From: a virus
Direction: 5' to 3' (one strand)
DNA: 21,778 nt
Virus record (IMG/VR): IMGVR_UViG_3300021963_000742
Coordinates: 1 to 21,778 of that record
Part shown: piece by piece, positions 11,450 to 21,729 of the stretch
How the letters are laid out: every line of letters begins with the position of its first letter
How positions within the stretch are numbered: the first letter of the stretch is position 1
Translations under genes and position numbers: made by a program
The notes under the pieces: generated by a model
Database searches by the model: none
The model's input: the letters and a program-made list of their open reading frames with translations, nothing else
Told to the model about the DNA's origin: nothing

Positions 11450-11953
11450 TTAGGTCCTTCTGATGGAGGGAGGAGGAGCGGCGGCAAGTTGCTGAGTGAG
11501 GGCCTCGACCTGCCGCTTAAGTTCGGCAACGTCATCGGCCGAGGCGCCCTTCGCAGAGACGGGGTTGGCATCCTTGGCCTTGAGCATTTCGGCCTCGAAG
11601 AGCTTCACCAGCGAAGCGGAGTAGTCGCCTTGGCCGGGGAGGGATTCGATCGGGTGGACCCACTTGTGCTTGATGGAGTCGGTGATCGCCTGCGCCGCGT
11701 CGTCGAGGGGCTCCATATCGGGGGTCGGTTGGCCGGAGAACTGGTAGTCCTTCGGGTCGGTGCGGGAAGGGGCGTCACAGACAATCACTTCGCCGGGGTA
11801 GTTCTGATCGTTGGGATCGTTGGGGTCCAGAAGCCGAGGGACGACGAATAGCTTCCGGCCCTGACGGCCAGAGGTGCGATCGGTTTCCTTGTACTCCCAT
11901 TCGGTATCTGGCACATTTAAGTAATGTGCAGCATTCAATCTCCATCTAGCCAT
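11450..11953 (-). CDS. Conserved phage virion-module protein with rebuilt 5' end
   Basis: 167 residues. The N-terminus reads MARWRLNAAHYLNV, followed by TEWEYKETDRTSGRQGRK and FVVPRLLDPNDPND. The C-terminus has a short coiled-coil-like helix (ADDVAELKRQVEALTQQLAA, about 139-158). Similar proteins sit in structural modules of related phages; function unknown. The start ATG 11953 overlaps the end of the HNH gene, whose TAG lies at codon 2-3 of this gene. The first 12 codons are AT-rich (AGA, AGA, TTG, TTA) unlike the rest of the gene, and duplicate at protein level the 12 codons left upstream of the HNH gene at 12453-12418. The original start was therefore at 12453; the present start came with the insertion. 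Confidence 0.8.
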   Translation of the reverse strand: MARWRLNAAHYLNVPDTEWEYKETDRTSGRQGRKLFVVPRLLDPNDPNDQNYPGEVIVCDAPSRTDPKDYQFSGQPTPDMEPLDDAAQAITDSIKHKWVHPIESLPGQGDYSASLVKLFEAEMLKAKDANPVSAKGASADDVAELKRQVEALTQQLAAAPPPSIRRT

Positions 11954-12417
11954 TTGTGTTCTCCAAAAGATGTTTCCAAGTTTCGTTGCGACGTATACGT
12001 CCTATTGTAGGACAACTGACGTTATATTCTCTTGCCATATCGCTCTCAGACAGTGAACTAGCTCGAATCTCTAATACCTGTTTTTCGGTTAAGCGAGCTT
12101 GGCCATGACTCTCTCCGTATGCTTGACGGCCTCTAGCAACTTTATCTGCAATATTATCAGCATGAGTGCCTCCAACCAAATGTAGATGATTCCAGCAAAG
12201 GGTATTGTCGCATGTATGACGCACAACCTCAGGCTCTTCGCCTGTAAAAATCTTAAAGGCTAATCTGTGAACATCTCTGTTCTTACCTTTCCACCAAATA
12301 CGCCCATAGCGACTTTGCCCACCAAGCCAAATTAAACAGCCTTGAGGAGAACAATAACTCCTCAATAGCATAATGCCTAATAGCTGTTCGTATTCAGCTG
12401 AGTACATTAATGTTCTC
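11918..12417 (-). mobile_element. Inserted HNH element carrying a recoded copy of its target gene's start
   Basis: About 500 bases of AT-rich DNA between the interrupted gene's original 12 codons (12453-12418) and its GC-rich remainder (from about 11917). It contains the HNH gene and, at its 3' end, codons 1-12 of the target written in synonymous codons (11953-11918). The two 36-base copies match at 22 of 36 bases but encode 11 of 12 identical residues. The exact right boundary could lie a few codons further into the target, because the base-composition switch is gradual over about 20 bases. Confidence 0.8.
11946..12407 (-). CDS. HNH homing-type endonuclease with C-terminal helix-turn-helix
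   Basis: 153 residues from ATG 12407. A zinc/HNH core of the HNH_3 type is clear: DVHRLAFKIFTGEEP (about 45-59), H64 with C66 and C71, N73 and H76 in VVRHTCDNTLCWNHLHLVGG, then THADNIADKVARGR. Residues about 104-148 form a DNA-binding region (ARLTEKQVLEIRASSLSESD, NVSCPTIGRIRRNETWKHL). Such free-standing enzymes cut a target site and spread by recombination. The gene is strikingly AT-rich compared with its neighbours, a sign of transfer. A longer frame reaching 12791 is only a fortuitous opening inside the upstream membrane-protein gene. It is inserted after codon 12 of the gene now starting at 11953. Confidence 0.93.
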   Translation of the reverse strand: MYSAEYEQLLGIMLLRSYCSPQGCLIWLGGQSRYGRIWWKGKNRDVHRLAFKIFTGEEPEVVRHTCDNTLCWNHLHLVGGTHADNIADKVARGRQAYGESHGQARLTEKQVLEIRASSLSESDMAREYNVSCPTIGRIRRNETWKHLLENTNG

Positions 12418-12453
12418 AAGGTAGTGAGGTGCGTTAAGCCGCCAGCGGGCCAT
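12397..12453 (-). pseudogene. Orphaned 5' end of the HNH-interrupted gene
   Basis: ATG 12453 opens an 18-codon frame: MARWRLNAPHYL from the original gene, then six codons from the insertion and TGA at 12399-12397. It has a good binding site (AGGAAAG) and overlaps the membrane-protein stop by 20 bases, as expected for the original operon junction. The HNH start at 12407 lies within it, eight bases before its stop, so ribosomes finishing this leader could restart on the HNH gene. Confidence 0.75.
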
Positions 12454-13330
12454 AGGCTTTCCTTTCGAAGGGCGCGATTGACCCAAGTGTCAACGCGAAC
12501 AGATGTCCCACGGTCGGGACGTGGAGGGGGAAGTAGGTGAGCGAGAGAACGCCGAAGGCGAGGAGGATCAGCTTCGGCCGGTGGTCCTCGGACTCGAACG
12601 CCAGGACCAGTGCGATCCAAAGGGGGATAGTTCCCACCCCGAGTTCGTAGAGGAGTTCCAGCACATCGTTGTACGCGTGGGGCGCGCGGGTGCCGATGAA
12701 GTTCGTTCGCACCTCCCACGTCCAGTAGTCCGCGAAGAACCCGCCCCAACCGGCGCCGAATACACTCAGGTGGTTCACCGTATCCTGCCATACTCCAAGG
12801 CGATCGGCGATCGAGCCTGTGCGTTCGGTAGATAAACTAGCCACGATCAGCGCGGTAGCGAAGATCGCACTCAAGGCAGCAAGGCGATTCCAGCGCCAGA
12901 GTGCAGCCACTCCCACGGCCCCGGCTGCGGCAAGCGCGCCTCGGGATTGGGAAAGGAAGAGGCCTAAGAGGGCGATGGGGATGAACCACCAGATCGCGTA
13001 GGCCACTGCGCCCGCTAAGCCAAGGGCCAAAGCCGCACCGAGGAAGTTCGGATTTCCGTAGAGGCCGAAGGGAATCTCCCACACACTCCCGAAAGCCTGG
13101 GATACCCCAGCGATAGCCACGTTGAACGCAAGGGCCACCGCCACGATCGACCACAACCAACGGGGATCGTGAAGGAAGGTTCCGCAGATATAAGCCACGA
13201 CCAACGTGGCGAGATAAGCCTGCGAGTAAAAGCCCGCAGAGGACCATTGCAGGGAGGCGCCCGCGTAAGCTACGAAGGCACCTCCCCACCAATGGATGGA
13301 GGTCGGTATTCGGTGAACCGCCCCCACCAT
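12434..13330 (-). CDS. Polytopic membrane protein resembling O-antigen ligase/polymerase (Wzy/WaaL-like)
   Basis: 298 residues with roughly seven to nine hydrophobic segments (for example about 36-53, 58-78, 96-125, 132-165, 230-246, 252-284). Motifs of the O-antigen ligase/polymerase superfamily are visible: GNPNFLG (92-98), LSQSRGA (126-132), RLGVWQDT (177-184), GAGWGGF (192-198) and PHAYNDVLELLYELGVG (217-233), the periplasmic-loop region with the conserved His. It is shorter than typical ligases of about 400 residues. It starts three bases after the preceding stop, with GAGGAAA about ten bases upstream, and base composition matches its neighbours. Expected role: altering host surface polysaccharide, or a phage-specific derived function; placement among virion genes implies late expression. 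Confidence 0.75.
   Translation of the reverse strand: MVGAVHRIPTSIHWWGGAFVAYAGASLQWSSAGFYSQAYLATLVVAYICGTFLHDPRWLWSIVAVALAFNVAIAGVSQAFGSVWEIPFGLYGNPNFLGAALALGLAGAVAYAIWWFIPIALLGLFLSQSRGALAAAGAVGVAALWRWNRLAALSAIFATALIVASLSTERTGSIADRLGVWQDTVNHLSVFGAGWGGFFADYWTWEVRTNFIGTRAPHAYNDVLELLYELGVGTIPLWIALVLAFESEDHRPKLILLAFGVLSLTYFPLHVPTVGHLFALTLGSIAPFERKAYGPLAA
12457..12463 (-). promoter_or_regulatory. Original ribosome binding site of the interrupted gene
   Basis: AGGAAAG on the minus strand, three bases before ATG 12453, inside the last codons of the membrane-protein gene. After the insertion it serves the 18-codon leader and probably, by coupling, the HNH gene. Confidence 0.6.
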
Positions 13331-20665: not shown

Positions 20666-21328
20666 TCACGCGCGCCTCCGAAGTGAGTGGGGCTGGGCTT
20701 CGTCGGGGAGGAGGGGCGGCGAAGTGGACCCAGCCCCCGAGTGTTCCAGGAGTGGTGGCGCCTGGGCACCCGTTTGGGTGAGAACCTTGCCGGAGCGAGC
20801 GATTGCCTTCTCTAGCATCGCGGCAAAGTCCACGTTCACGTTTGTTTGCTTCGAGTGCTTCCCGTAGCCCAGGCGATCCGCGGCGTCGCGGGAGATCGCG
20901 ATCAGGTCGCGGGTGGGGAGGAATTCCTCTTGTTCTTCGGCCGCTTCGAGCTTCTCGGCGAGTTGCCGTTCGGCCTTGAGCATGTTGGAGTGGGCGAGTT
21001 CAAAGAAGGTATCAACGTTCTCGCGCCACGCTTCGGTGGCCTGACCGCGGTAGGTGGCAACGAGGTTCTTGAAGGTCGGATCGGCCATGAGTTGGCAGAC
21101 GCGGTTGTAGGAGTACCCTGCACGGGCACCGGCGTCTACTTGGGTCAGGCCAGAGGCGATCAACCGCGCGAGTAGGTGGTGGGGATCGCGCAGGCGCTTG
21201 ATCAGCGGAGCGGCGGTGTCACGCTTTACCAGCAGGCGCGAGAGGTCGGCGCGCGTGAGGTCACGGACCCCAATCACCTTGAAGGATGAAGGAGGCTGAC
21301 CTGCGTTACGGCCGCGCCGAAGGGTCAT
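20666..21328 (-). CDS. Terminase small subunit
   Basis: 220 residues. Residues about 45-95 form a helix-turn-helix region (LLARLIASGLTQVDAGARAG, then YSYNRVCQLMADPTF), followed by a long helical oligomerisation segment (about 100-145, rich in Glu/Ala/Lys) and a Pro/Ser-rich C-terminus. This layout and position upstream of the large subunit are typical of small terminases that recognise phage DNA to begin packaging. The start ATG overlaps the GIY-YIG stop (ATGA). The segment RDAADRLGYGKHSKQTNVNV (about 146-165) is also commonly seen in these proteins. Confidence 0.85.
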   Translation of the reverse strand: MTLRRGRNAGQPPSSFKVIGVRDLTRADLSRLLVKRDTAAPLIKRLRDPHHLLARLIASGLTQVDAGARAGYSYNRVCQLMADPTFKNLVATYRGQATEAWRENVDTFFELAHSNMLKAERQLAEKLEAAEEQEEFLPTRDLIAISRDAADRLGYGKHSKQTNVNVDFAAMLEKAIARSGKVLTQTGAQAPPLLEHSGAGSTSPPLLPDEAQPHSLRRRA

Positions 21329-21729
21329 ATCCGCCGTTCCAATCTTGGGGCCGGGGGCGGGGGCGCATTGAGTACTACCACAGCGCCGCCGATCTGAAGG
21401 GTCATAGGCGCGCGGATCGGCAGCCCTTGGCGCTTCAACTGGGCGTTGTACCGCGGCCGGTAGAGATCGATCATCTGCGCTTCAATCCGATCTAGGTCGG
21501 CGGGGAGACAAGGCTGGACGTGGACCTCGTCGTAGATCAGCCCGGGGATCGGCAGCCATTCAGGGAGCTTCTGGCCCTTCCGCTTCTTGCCCCAGAGATC
21601 GCGGTGGGCGTAGACCCGCCCAAGCATCATCTTTGATTTCCCGACATAGATCACCACGCCCCGGCTCACGAGGATGTAAACCCCCGATCGGAGCGCGGCA
21701 GAAACATCCGTGAATCCCTCGAACCTCAA
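21325..21729 (-). CDS. GIY-YIG family nuclease
   Basis: 134 residues. The family motifs are intact: SGVYIL (G16, Y18), IYVGKS (Y28, G30), RVYAHR with R38, EAQMIDLYRPRYN with E83 and N95. It is a single compact catalytic domain with a Pro-rich tail and no obvious DNA-recognition module, so not clearly a homing enzyme. Start TTG 21729 is taken because an in-frame stop lies two codons upstream and no ATG/GTG precedes the GVY strand. It forms a TTGA overlap with a possible upstream gene. Position directly before the terminase genes suggests a role in packaging or DNA processing (inference). Confidence 0.85.
   Translation of the reverse strand: MRFEGFTDVSAALRSGVYILVSRGVVIYVGKSKMMLGRVYAHRDLWGKKRKGQKLPEWLPIPGLIYDEVHVQPCLPADLDRIEAQMIDLYRPRYNAQLKRQGLPIRAPMTLQIGGAVVVLNAPPPPAPRLERRI

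Follow-up and report, generated by a model that had tools for sequence, protein, structure and literature searches.

A gene for an HNH endonuclease that lies within the first codons of another gene, with no intron or intein to remove it, raises the question of how the interrupted gene is kept intact. We considered this question for a locus in IMG/VR virus record IMGVR_UViG_3300021963_000742, of which a stretch of 21,778 nucleotides (positions 1 to 21,778; here called the window) was analyzed. Read along its minus strand, the window has a Wzy_C-like gene, then a displaced start, an HNH gene and a restored target gene, and the HNH gene thus stands between two spellings of the first 12 codons of the target. 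The locus is best read as a free-standing HNH homing element that entered after codon 12 of a conserved phage gene and that would have exchanged the start of this gene for a resistant allele, a reading to which we give a probability of about 0.8 on the basis of sequence comparison.

Organization of the window locus

The features of the locus are as follows. Unless another basis is given, they were read from the sequence.

12434..13330, minus strand: Wzy_C-like (O-antigen ligase/polymerase-like) gene; Pfam Wzy_C, expectation value (E) 1.2e-5, under the curated cut-off
12458..12465, minus strand: ribosome-binding site AAAGGAAA of the displaced native start
12418..12453, minus strand: displaced native 5' end of the target, codons 1-12, MARWRLNAPHYL, ATG at 12453; corresponds to the sole start in the HNH-free loci L043 and L050
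12394..12453, minus strand: remnant reading frame of 19 codons, MARWRLNAPHYLENINVLS, and a stop
11946..12407, minus strand: HNH endonuclease gene, 153 amino acids, ATG at 12407; HNH_3/phrog_59 type; 43% G+C versus about 63% around it
11961..11964, minus strand: GGAG ribosome-binding site of the restored gene, within the C-terminal codons of the HNH gene
11946..11953, minus strand: ATGGCTAG, in which the HNH stop TAG overlaps the start of the restored gene
11918..11953, minus strand: replacement (recoded) 5' end, codons 1-12, MARWRLNAAHYL, ATG at 11953; by sequence comparison
11903..11917, minus strand: return to the native G+C-rich character, codons 13-17; by third-position G+C and comparison with L043, approximate boundary
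11450..11953, minus strand: restored target gene, 167 amino acids; intact frame

The stop of the Wzy_C-like gene lies 20 nucleotides inside the displaced start. Beyond MARWRLNAPHYL, the remnant frame reads ENINVLS before its stop and overlaps the start of the HNH gene by 14 nucleotides, and HNH translation could be coupled to it; at the other end, the HNH gene and the restored gene overlap by 8 nucleotides. The initial annotation, which was made from the sequence alone, had described a displaced ATG with its own binding site and a second ATG, overlapping the HNH stop, that runs into the full 167-residue protein, and both are present in the sequence. Between roughly 12430 and 11900, a stretch that takes in the HNH gene and the opening dozen codons of the restored gene, the G+C content drops from about 63% to about 43%. 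Within the restored gene, third-position G+C is 0.33 for codons 1-15 and 0.60-0.90 for later codons.

The HNH protein matches Pfam HNH_3 (E 2e-7, above its cut-off) and phrog_59 (E 1.9e-27), and the H, N and H catalytic positions are conserved in an alignment of HNH proteins (A2). The profile built from this alignment matches I-HmuI (PDB 1u3e, E 6.6e-4), with which the window protein shares the HNH core. In the region of a possible DNA-binding C-terminal module, profile positions 82-141 weakly match the helix-turn-helix-like chains 2lvs and 1s7o. As HNH endonucleases of this kind are often intron-encoded, this match could suggest that the insert is a group I intron, or else an intein, that is spliced out so as to join codon 12 to codon 13. 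I-HmuI itself is encoded in a group I intron. Unlike I-HmuI, the window locus has no intron: the HNH frame fills all but 10 of the 464 nucleotides between the two 5' copies, which leaves no room for a ribozyme, and an Rfam search found no intron RNA. An intein is contradicted by the reading frames, as the HNH frame ends in a stop of its own and a new ATG opens the target. We therefore exclude the intron on grounds of space and the Rfam result, and the intein on grounds of the frames, and consider the chance that either is correct to be close to nil.

Target gene and empty sites

The target protein matches no Pfam or PHROG family, its modelled structure matched no known fold, and a tblastn search of phages found no homologues. 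The gene is, nonetheless, common in related soil phage contigs, being present in 28 of 32 relatives (loci with a close relative of the major capsid gene and at least 7 kb beyond it). In the model, N-terminal strands at residues 3-6 and 10-13 belong to the confident core. Loss of the first 12 residues would probably matter, since they include these two beta strands. At one further genome locus (L110), the target is present and no related HNH gene was found beside it.

Two related loci, L043 and L050, have the gene order of the window without the HNH gene, and in both the Wzy-like gene is directly joined to a single MARWRL start. This is the uninterrupted homologue that the initial annotation had anticipated. 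In L043, the Wzy-like gene ends with RYG on TAT GGC TAG, overlapping the target ATG; in the window, it keeps the frame seen in L043, passes across the displaced ATG and ends with KAYGPLAA. A second start, which would have spoken against an insertion had HNH-free relatives carried it, was found in none of 118 such loci. It follows from these uninterrupted loci, and from the lack of a second start, that the upstream piece is the native 5' end and that the HNH element supplies the other. The empty sites thus support the earlier proposal that the HNH gene interrupts a gene start and provides a replacement.

As the window is a single metagenomic virus record, one should also consider that the target was duplicated in tandem, or that the assembly is chimeric, with the HNH gene caught between two copies. 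Two starts were found in no relative, sequenced phage isolates share the layout (see below), and the replacement joins the gene body in frame with exact overlaps. These facts contradict both versions, and we regard such an origin as very improbable.

Comparison of the two 5' copies

The upstream copy ATGGCCCGCTGGCGGCTTAACGCACCTCACTACCTT (12453-12418, minus strand) and the downstream copy ATGGCTAGATGGAGATTGAATGCTGCACATTACTTA (11953-11918) encode 11 identical residues out of 12 and share only 22 of 36 bases. At the nine identical residues whose codons can vary, eight codons are changed, Tyr TAC being the sole exception; recomputation reproduced exactly the values reported in the initial annotation. 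Elsewhere in the six frames of the window, no 12-residue stretch agrees at more than 5 of 12 positions, so that this match is not due to chance. For reference, 75 distinct natural N-termini of the target family were compared, and all 137 pairs with at least 11 of 12 identical residues share at least 23 of 36 bases. The window pair lies just outside this natural range.

An alternative to selected recoding is passive co-conversion, in which the HNH gene homed from a diverged, AT-rich relative with the same target, the new start is donor DNA that accompanied it with no selection for recoding, and the left junction is an illegitimate join within the native start. We consider this account possible, if somewhat improbable. 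The fall in G+C and the AT-ending codons throughout the insert agree with it, as does the fact that, within the target family, this start is most often spelled ATGGCTAGATGG(AGA). It is less easily reconciled with the rare residues NA at positions 7-8, which occur in one of the 75 family members and are nonetheless common to both window copies despite saturated codons.

Recurrence across phages

A scan of phage records yielded 1,086 records with relatives of the window HNH protein. For 176 HNH genes, the residues after the next start were compared with the sequence upstream of the HNH gene, with swapped pairs serving as background. This start-anchored survey gave five HNH genes with at least 5 of 7 residues repeated, against about 0.14 expected. 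At a threshold of 4 of 7, ten rows (nine loci) qualified, where about 0.8 would be expected. One of the ten rows, L321, has a stop inside the remnant and was not counted further.

The clear cases precede helicase and DNA polymerase genes. Before a helicase gene (L376), MMKMLEAPLAYGA occurs twice, with 13 of 13 residues identical and 9 of 10 codons changed, and before a DNA polymerase gene (L340), all 7 of 7 codons are changed. At a second DNA polymerase gene (L346), the repeated residues IMHID have 4 of 4 codons changed, a short match but at the same position. L446 (a glycosyltransferase gene), L453 and L457 are weaker, the last two resting on short matches, and L441 and L017 are possible but weak cases. 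The initial annotation had called for a search for further HNH genes with a recoded 5' end behind them; clear independent cases exist, among them Klebsiella phage Putnam, for which the exact empty site is available. The recurrence of the layout before genes for DNA polymerase and helicase suggests that a selfish element which would cut a gene and repair it with an altered copy is widespread.

Where the next start lies no more than 60 nucleotides away, 69 of 91 surveyed HNH genes overlap it. This suggests that start codons are a preferred place of insertion, or that the start of the target shapes the C-terminus of the HNH protein. At T7-like gp16, gp8, ligase and endonuclease I sites, the HNH gene overlaps the next start and a displaced 5' end is absent. 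Among 24 further HNH places in the same phages, there was no strong new case and two very short candidates (L504 and L510), while an initial search for remnants among 36 HNH relatives, made with a loose search window, yielded noise only. L029 proved to be a false match, in which the HNH gene was aligned to itself, and L420, L016 and L450, which score above or near background, are not anchored at a start and were not counted.

Overlaps between an HNH gene of this family and the next start codon are very common and were seen at gp16, gp8, ligase, DNA polymerase, endonuclease I and phosphoesterase genes in L190, L192, L194, L320-L334 and other loci. Four phage records (W01, W05, W08 and G008) carry four to six HNH_3 genes each, and several such elements may therefore coexist in one genome.

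Klebsiella phage Putnam and related polymerase loci

In Putnam (L326), a displaced DNA polymerase start is accompanied by a recoded replacement with 6 of 10 codons changed. Compared with the HNH-free phage SKP1, the stranded start is identical at 31 of 33 bases and the replacement start at 22 of 33, while the polymerase gene body is identical at 114-120 per 120 bases. When the upstream gene joined to the uninterrupted polymerase was used as an empty-site query, six phages matched it in one piece over 98-100% of its length, with an identity of 90-93%. One of them, JKT6, was read directly as ..TTTGGATA ATGACAACTAGCATAATGCATATTGACCTGGAG ACG.., with no HNH gene.

Other phages show different arrangements at the same polymerase. 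In VLC4 and VLCpiA1r, Putnam's stranded polymerase start recurs with the same last codon and continues in frame into a different HNH protein (MTTSIMHIDLE-MGGCVDHG..), and their polymerase start has a sequence from a more diverged donor. In P929 and RothJ, the HNH gene is joined directly after ATGACA. Taken together, the Putnam, VLC4/VLCpiA1r and P929/RothJ starts imply that this polymerase has had its opening codons exchanged more than once. Where the alleles of Putnam, VR401 and FBKp18 differ, the differences cluster in one and the same set of codons, HIDLE. In L335 and L338, a closely related HNH gene stands at the polymerase start with no remnant.

A different type of HNH gene is found at the polymerase start of Klebsiella phage vB_VIPKPNTPH08 (L337, 397-2043). 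Its end, GGATATTTAGAGGTTTAG, resembles the polymerase codons GTGGATTTAGAGGTCGAG just downstream, and is perhaps a duplicated piece of the target on the 3' side.

Codon-change statistics and competing explanations

The identical variable residues of eight loci were pooled, the loci having been picked by residue similarity and not by DNA difference. Of 53 identical-residue codons, 45 are changed. Each locus's own codon usage predicts 26.9 changes, and 45 was reached in none of 200,000 simulated sets (P < 1e-5); uniform synonymous choice predicts 35.7 (P = 0.0025). Without the window, which was chosen for its recoding, 37 of 44 codons are changed (P = 0.0065, uniform). The count thus exceeds both independent-draw expectations, with or without the window, which argues against co-conversion, as do the 16 of 17 codons changed (P = 0.0096) in L376 and L340, where G+C hardly shifts. 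The pooled excess supports selection for difference between the two copies. Protection from recutting and protection from repeat-mediated loss would both fit it.

The second of these possibilities needs to be considered in its own right: similar duplicated 5' ends may be lost by recombination between the repeats, in which case recoding would guard against deletion of the element and not against cutting. The same excess of codon changes is predicted, and L335 and L338, with their related HNH genes and no remnant, are in line with such losses. The repeats are, however, short (about 30-40 base pairs), and the clustering of the Putnam, VR401 and FBKp18 differences in HIDLE, as judged by inspection, is a better fit to a recognition site. 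We consider this explanation unlikely.

Several results weigh against a selected, cutting-resistant replacement and should be taken into account together. Most of the 176 surveyed HNH genes have no displaced 5' end. No second HNH gene before the window target was found in the searches for a donor or sister locus, and DNA-pattern scans of viral contigs for the donor returned unrelated matches or HNH-free loci only. The recoding in Putnam is not above chance, and the polymerase start of the HNH-free VLCpiA1l is about 94% like Putnam's replacement; an altered start can thus exist without a nuclease, and such alleles circulate. This likeness, together with the clearly foreign polymerase start of VLC4, favors co-conversion. 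As the window replacement is itself AT-rich, composition explains part of the divergence there. If codons are drawn independently, the probability of sharing at most 22 of 36 bases is 0.011 at 43% G+C and 0.03 at 35%, but that of at least 8 of 9 codons differing is 0.25 at 43% G+C, which is not unusual by itself. With the base-match probability low and the changed-codon count ordinary, one locus cannot decide between recoding and foreign DNA.

The altered start may amount to no more than a donor allele. An origin in a diverged relative is, nonetheless, not really a rival to a resistant replacement, as a resistant 5' end would most likely be just such an allele. We infer self-immunity by recoding, with the pooled counts as its statistical support.

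Proposed mechanism

In the proposed homing mechanism, the element carries at its 3' end a ribosome-binding site, a start codon and about 12-16 codons that are synonymously unlike the native ones. The HNH protein would cut the HNH-less allele near codon 12, and repair of the break would copy the element from the donor, with the upstream region and native codons 1-12 providing the homology on the left and the gene body that on the right. The native 5' end would thereby be left upstream, where it is seen stranded in the sequence. The target gene, the frame of which is intact, would be expressed from the replacement start, and the new allele would resist recutting through its different codons. Remnant, HNH gene and target may be translated in a coupled fashion. 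Related HNH elements before the DNA polymerase and helicase genes of other phages show the same design in their sequences.

Comparison with known systems

The closest parallel is provided by the WHO elements of the yeasts Torulaspora and Lachancea, which combine a nuclease with a gene end that confers resistance (Coughlan et al. 2020, PMC7282813) and which replace the 3' end of FBA1, leaving displaced 3' fragments (PMC7282813). As in these elements, a homing nuclease stands beside a replacement end of the target, a displaced native fragment lies on the far side and the target gene is chimeric. WHO elements, however, replace a 3' end, are intein-derived with a zinc finger and are clustered, whereas the phage elements use an HNH nuclease and replace a 5' end with its start codon and ribosome-binding site. 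In the window, Putnam, VLC4, L376, L340 and L346, the target end carried by the element is, unlike in WHO, the 5' end. Given the HNH enzyme, the 5' end and the phage host, the phage elements would work like WHO elements in mirror image but are not members of the WHO family.

Mobile open reading frames with foreign C-termini in fungal mitochondria (Allomyces atp6; Glomus atp6, atp9, cox2 and nad3; PMC3630166) likewise combine an inserted endonuclease frame with a replacement gene end, the DNA of which differs far more than the protein. They differ from the phage elements in concerning 3' ends, LAGLIDADG or GIY-YIG enzymes and mitochondria, and they were read as horizontal transfer (PMC3630166). 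The Seg and Mob endonucleases of T-even phages are similar in being free-standing, promoter-less or coupled genes beside their targets, with coconversion of flanks and some overlaps of reading frames, while the parts of the source consulted describe no displaced gene end with a replacement start (PMC2988022). In the case of PhiPA3 gp210 and PhiKZ gp178, 17 silent mutations near the target were designed against recognition, and the recoded gene restored viability (PMC11620839). That system shows that recoding can confer resistance, although the enzyme is intron-encoded and the recoding laboratory-made. The layout reported here was not found described for phages in the open-licence literature searched, which is weak evidence of novelty. 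Synthetic Cleave-and-Rescue or home-and-rescue gene drives cleave an essential gene and supply a recoded copy that rescues it; they differ in being engineered, CRISPR-based and used in animals.

Implications and additional observations

We lean, with some reserve, towards the wider view that phages harbor a widespread natural class of cut-and-rescue elements, in which small HNH homing genes insert no further than the first 2-13 codons into conserved genes, frequently take the native start codon and bring a 5' end with codons selected against recutting by their own enzyme. If this is true, repeated invasions would make the first codons of target genes mosaic, which would account for the mosaic beginnings of certain phage genes, among them that of the Drulisvirus DNA polymerase. 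It would also explain how an important gene can harbor a selfish nuclease where there is neither intron nor intein, as the gene would be restored and not the element spliced out. Such elements would be a natural counterpart of the engineered cleave-and-rescue drives that is approachable with small proteins and short DNA substrates. For annotation, it should be noted that a displaced start can end up annotated within the HNH gene, which is the case in VLC4.

In another relative (L073:3499-3927), a related HNH gene is located 3' of the target, with an ATGA overlap with the next gene and no displaced start. Elsewhere in the window, a GIY-YIG-like open reading frame (21325-21729, minus strand; Pfam GIY-YIG, E 0.0017, under the cut-off) has a stop that overlaps the ATG of the next gene (20666-21328), which itself stands just before the terminase large subunit gene. 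This is possibly a second nuclease at a gene start, for which no search for a displaced start was made. The Wzy_C-like gene sits among virion genes in the window, is also present in L043, L050 and other contigs, and might alter the host surface.
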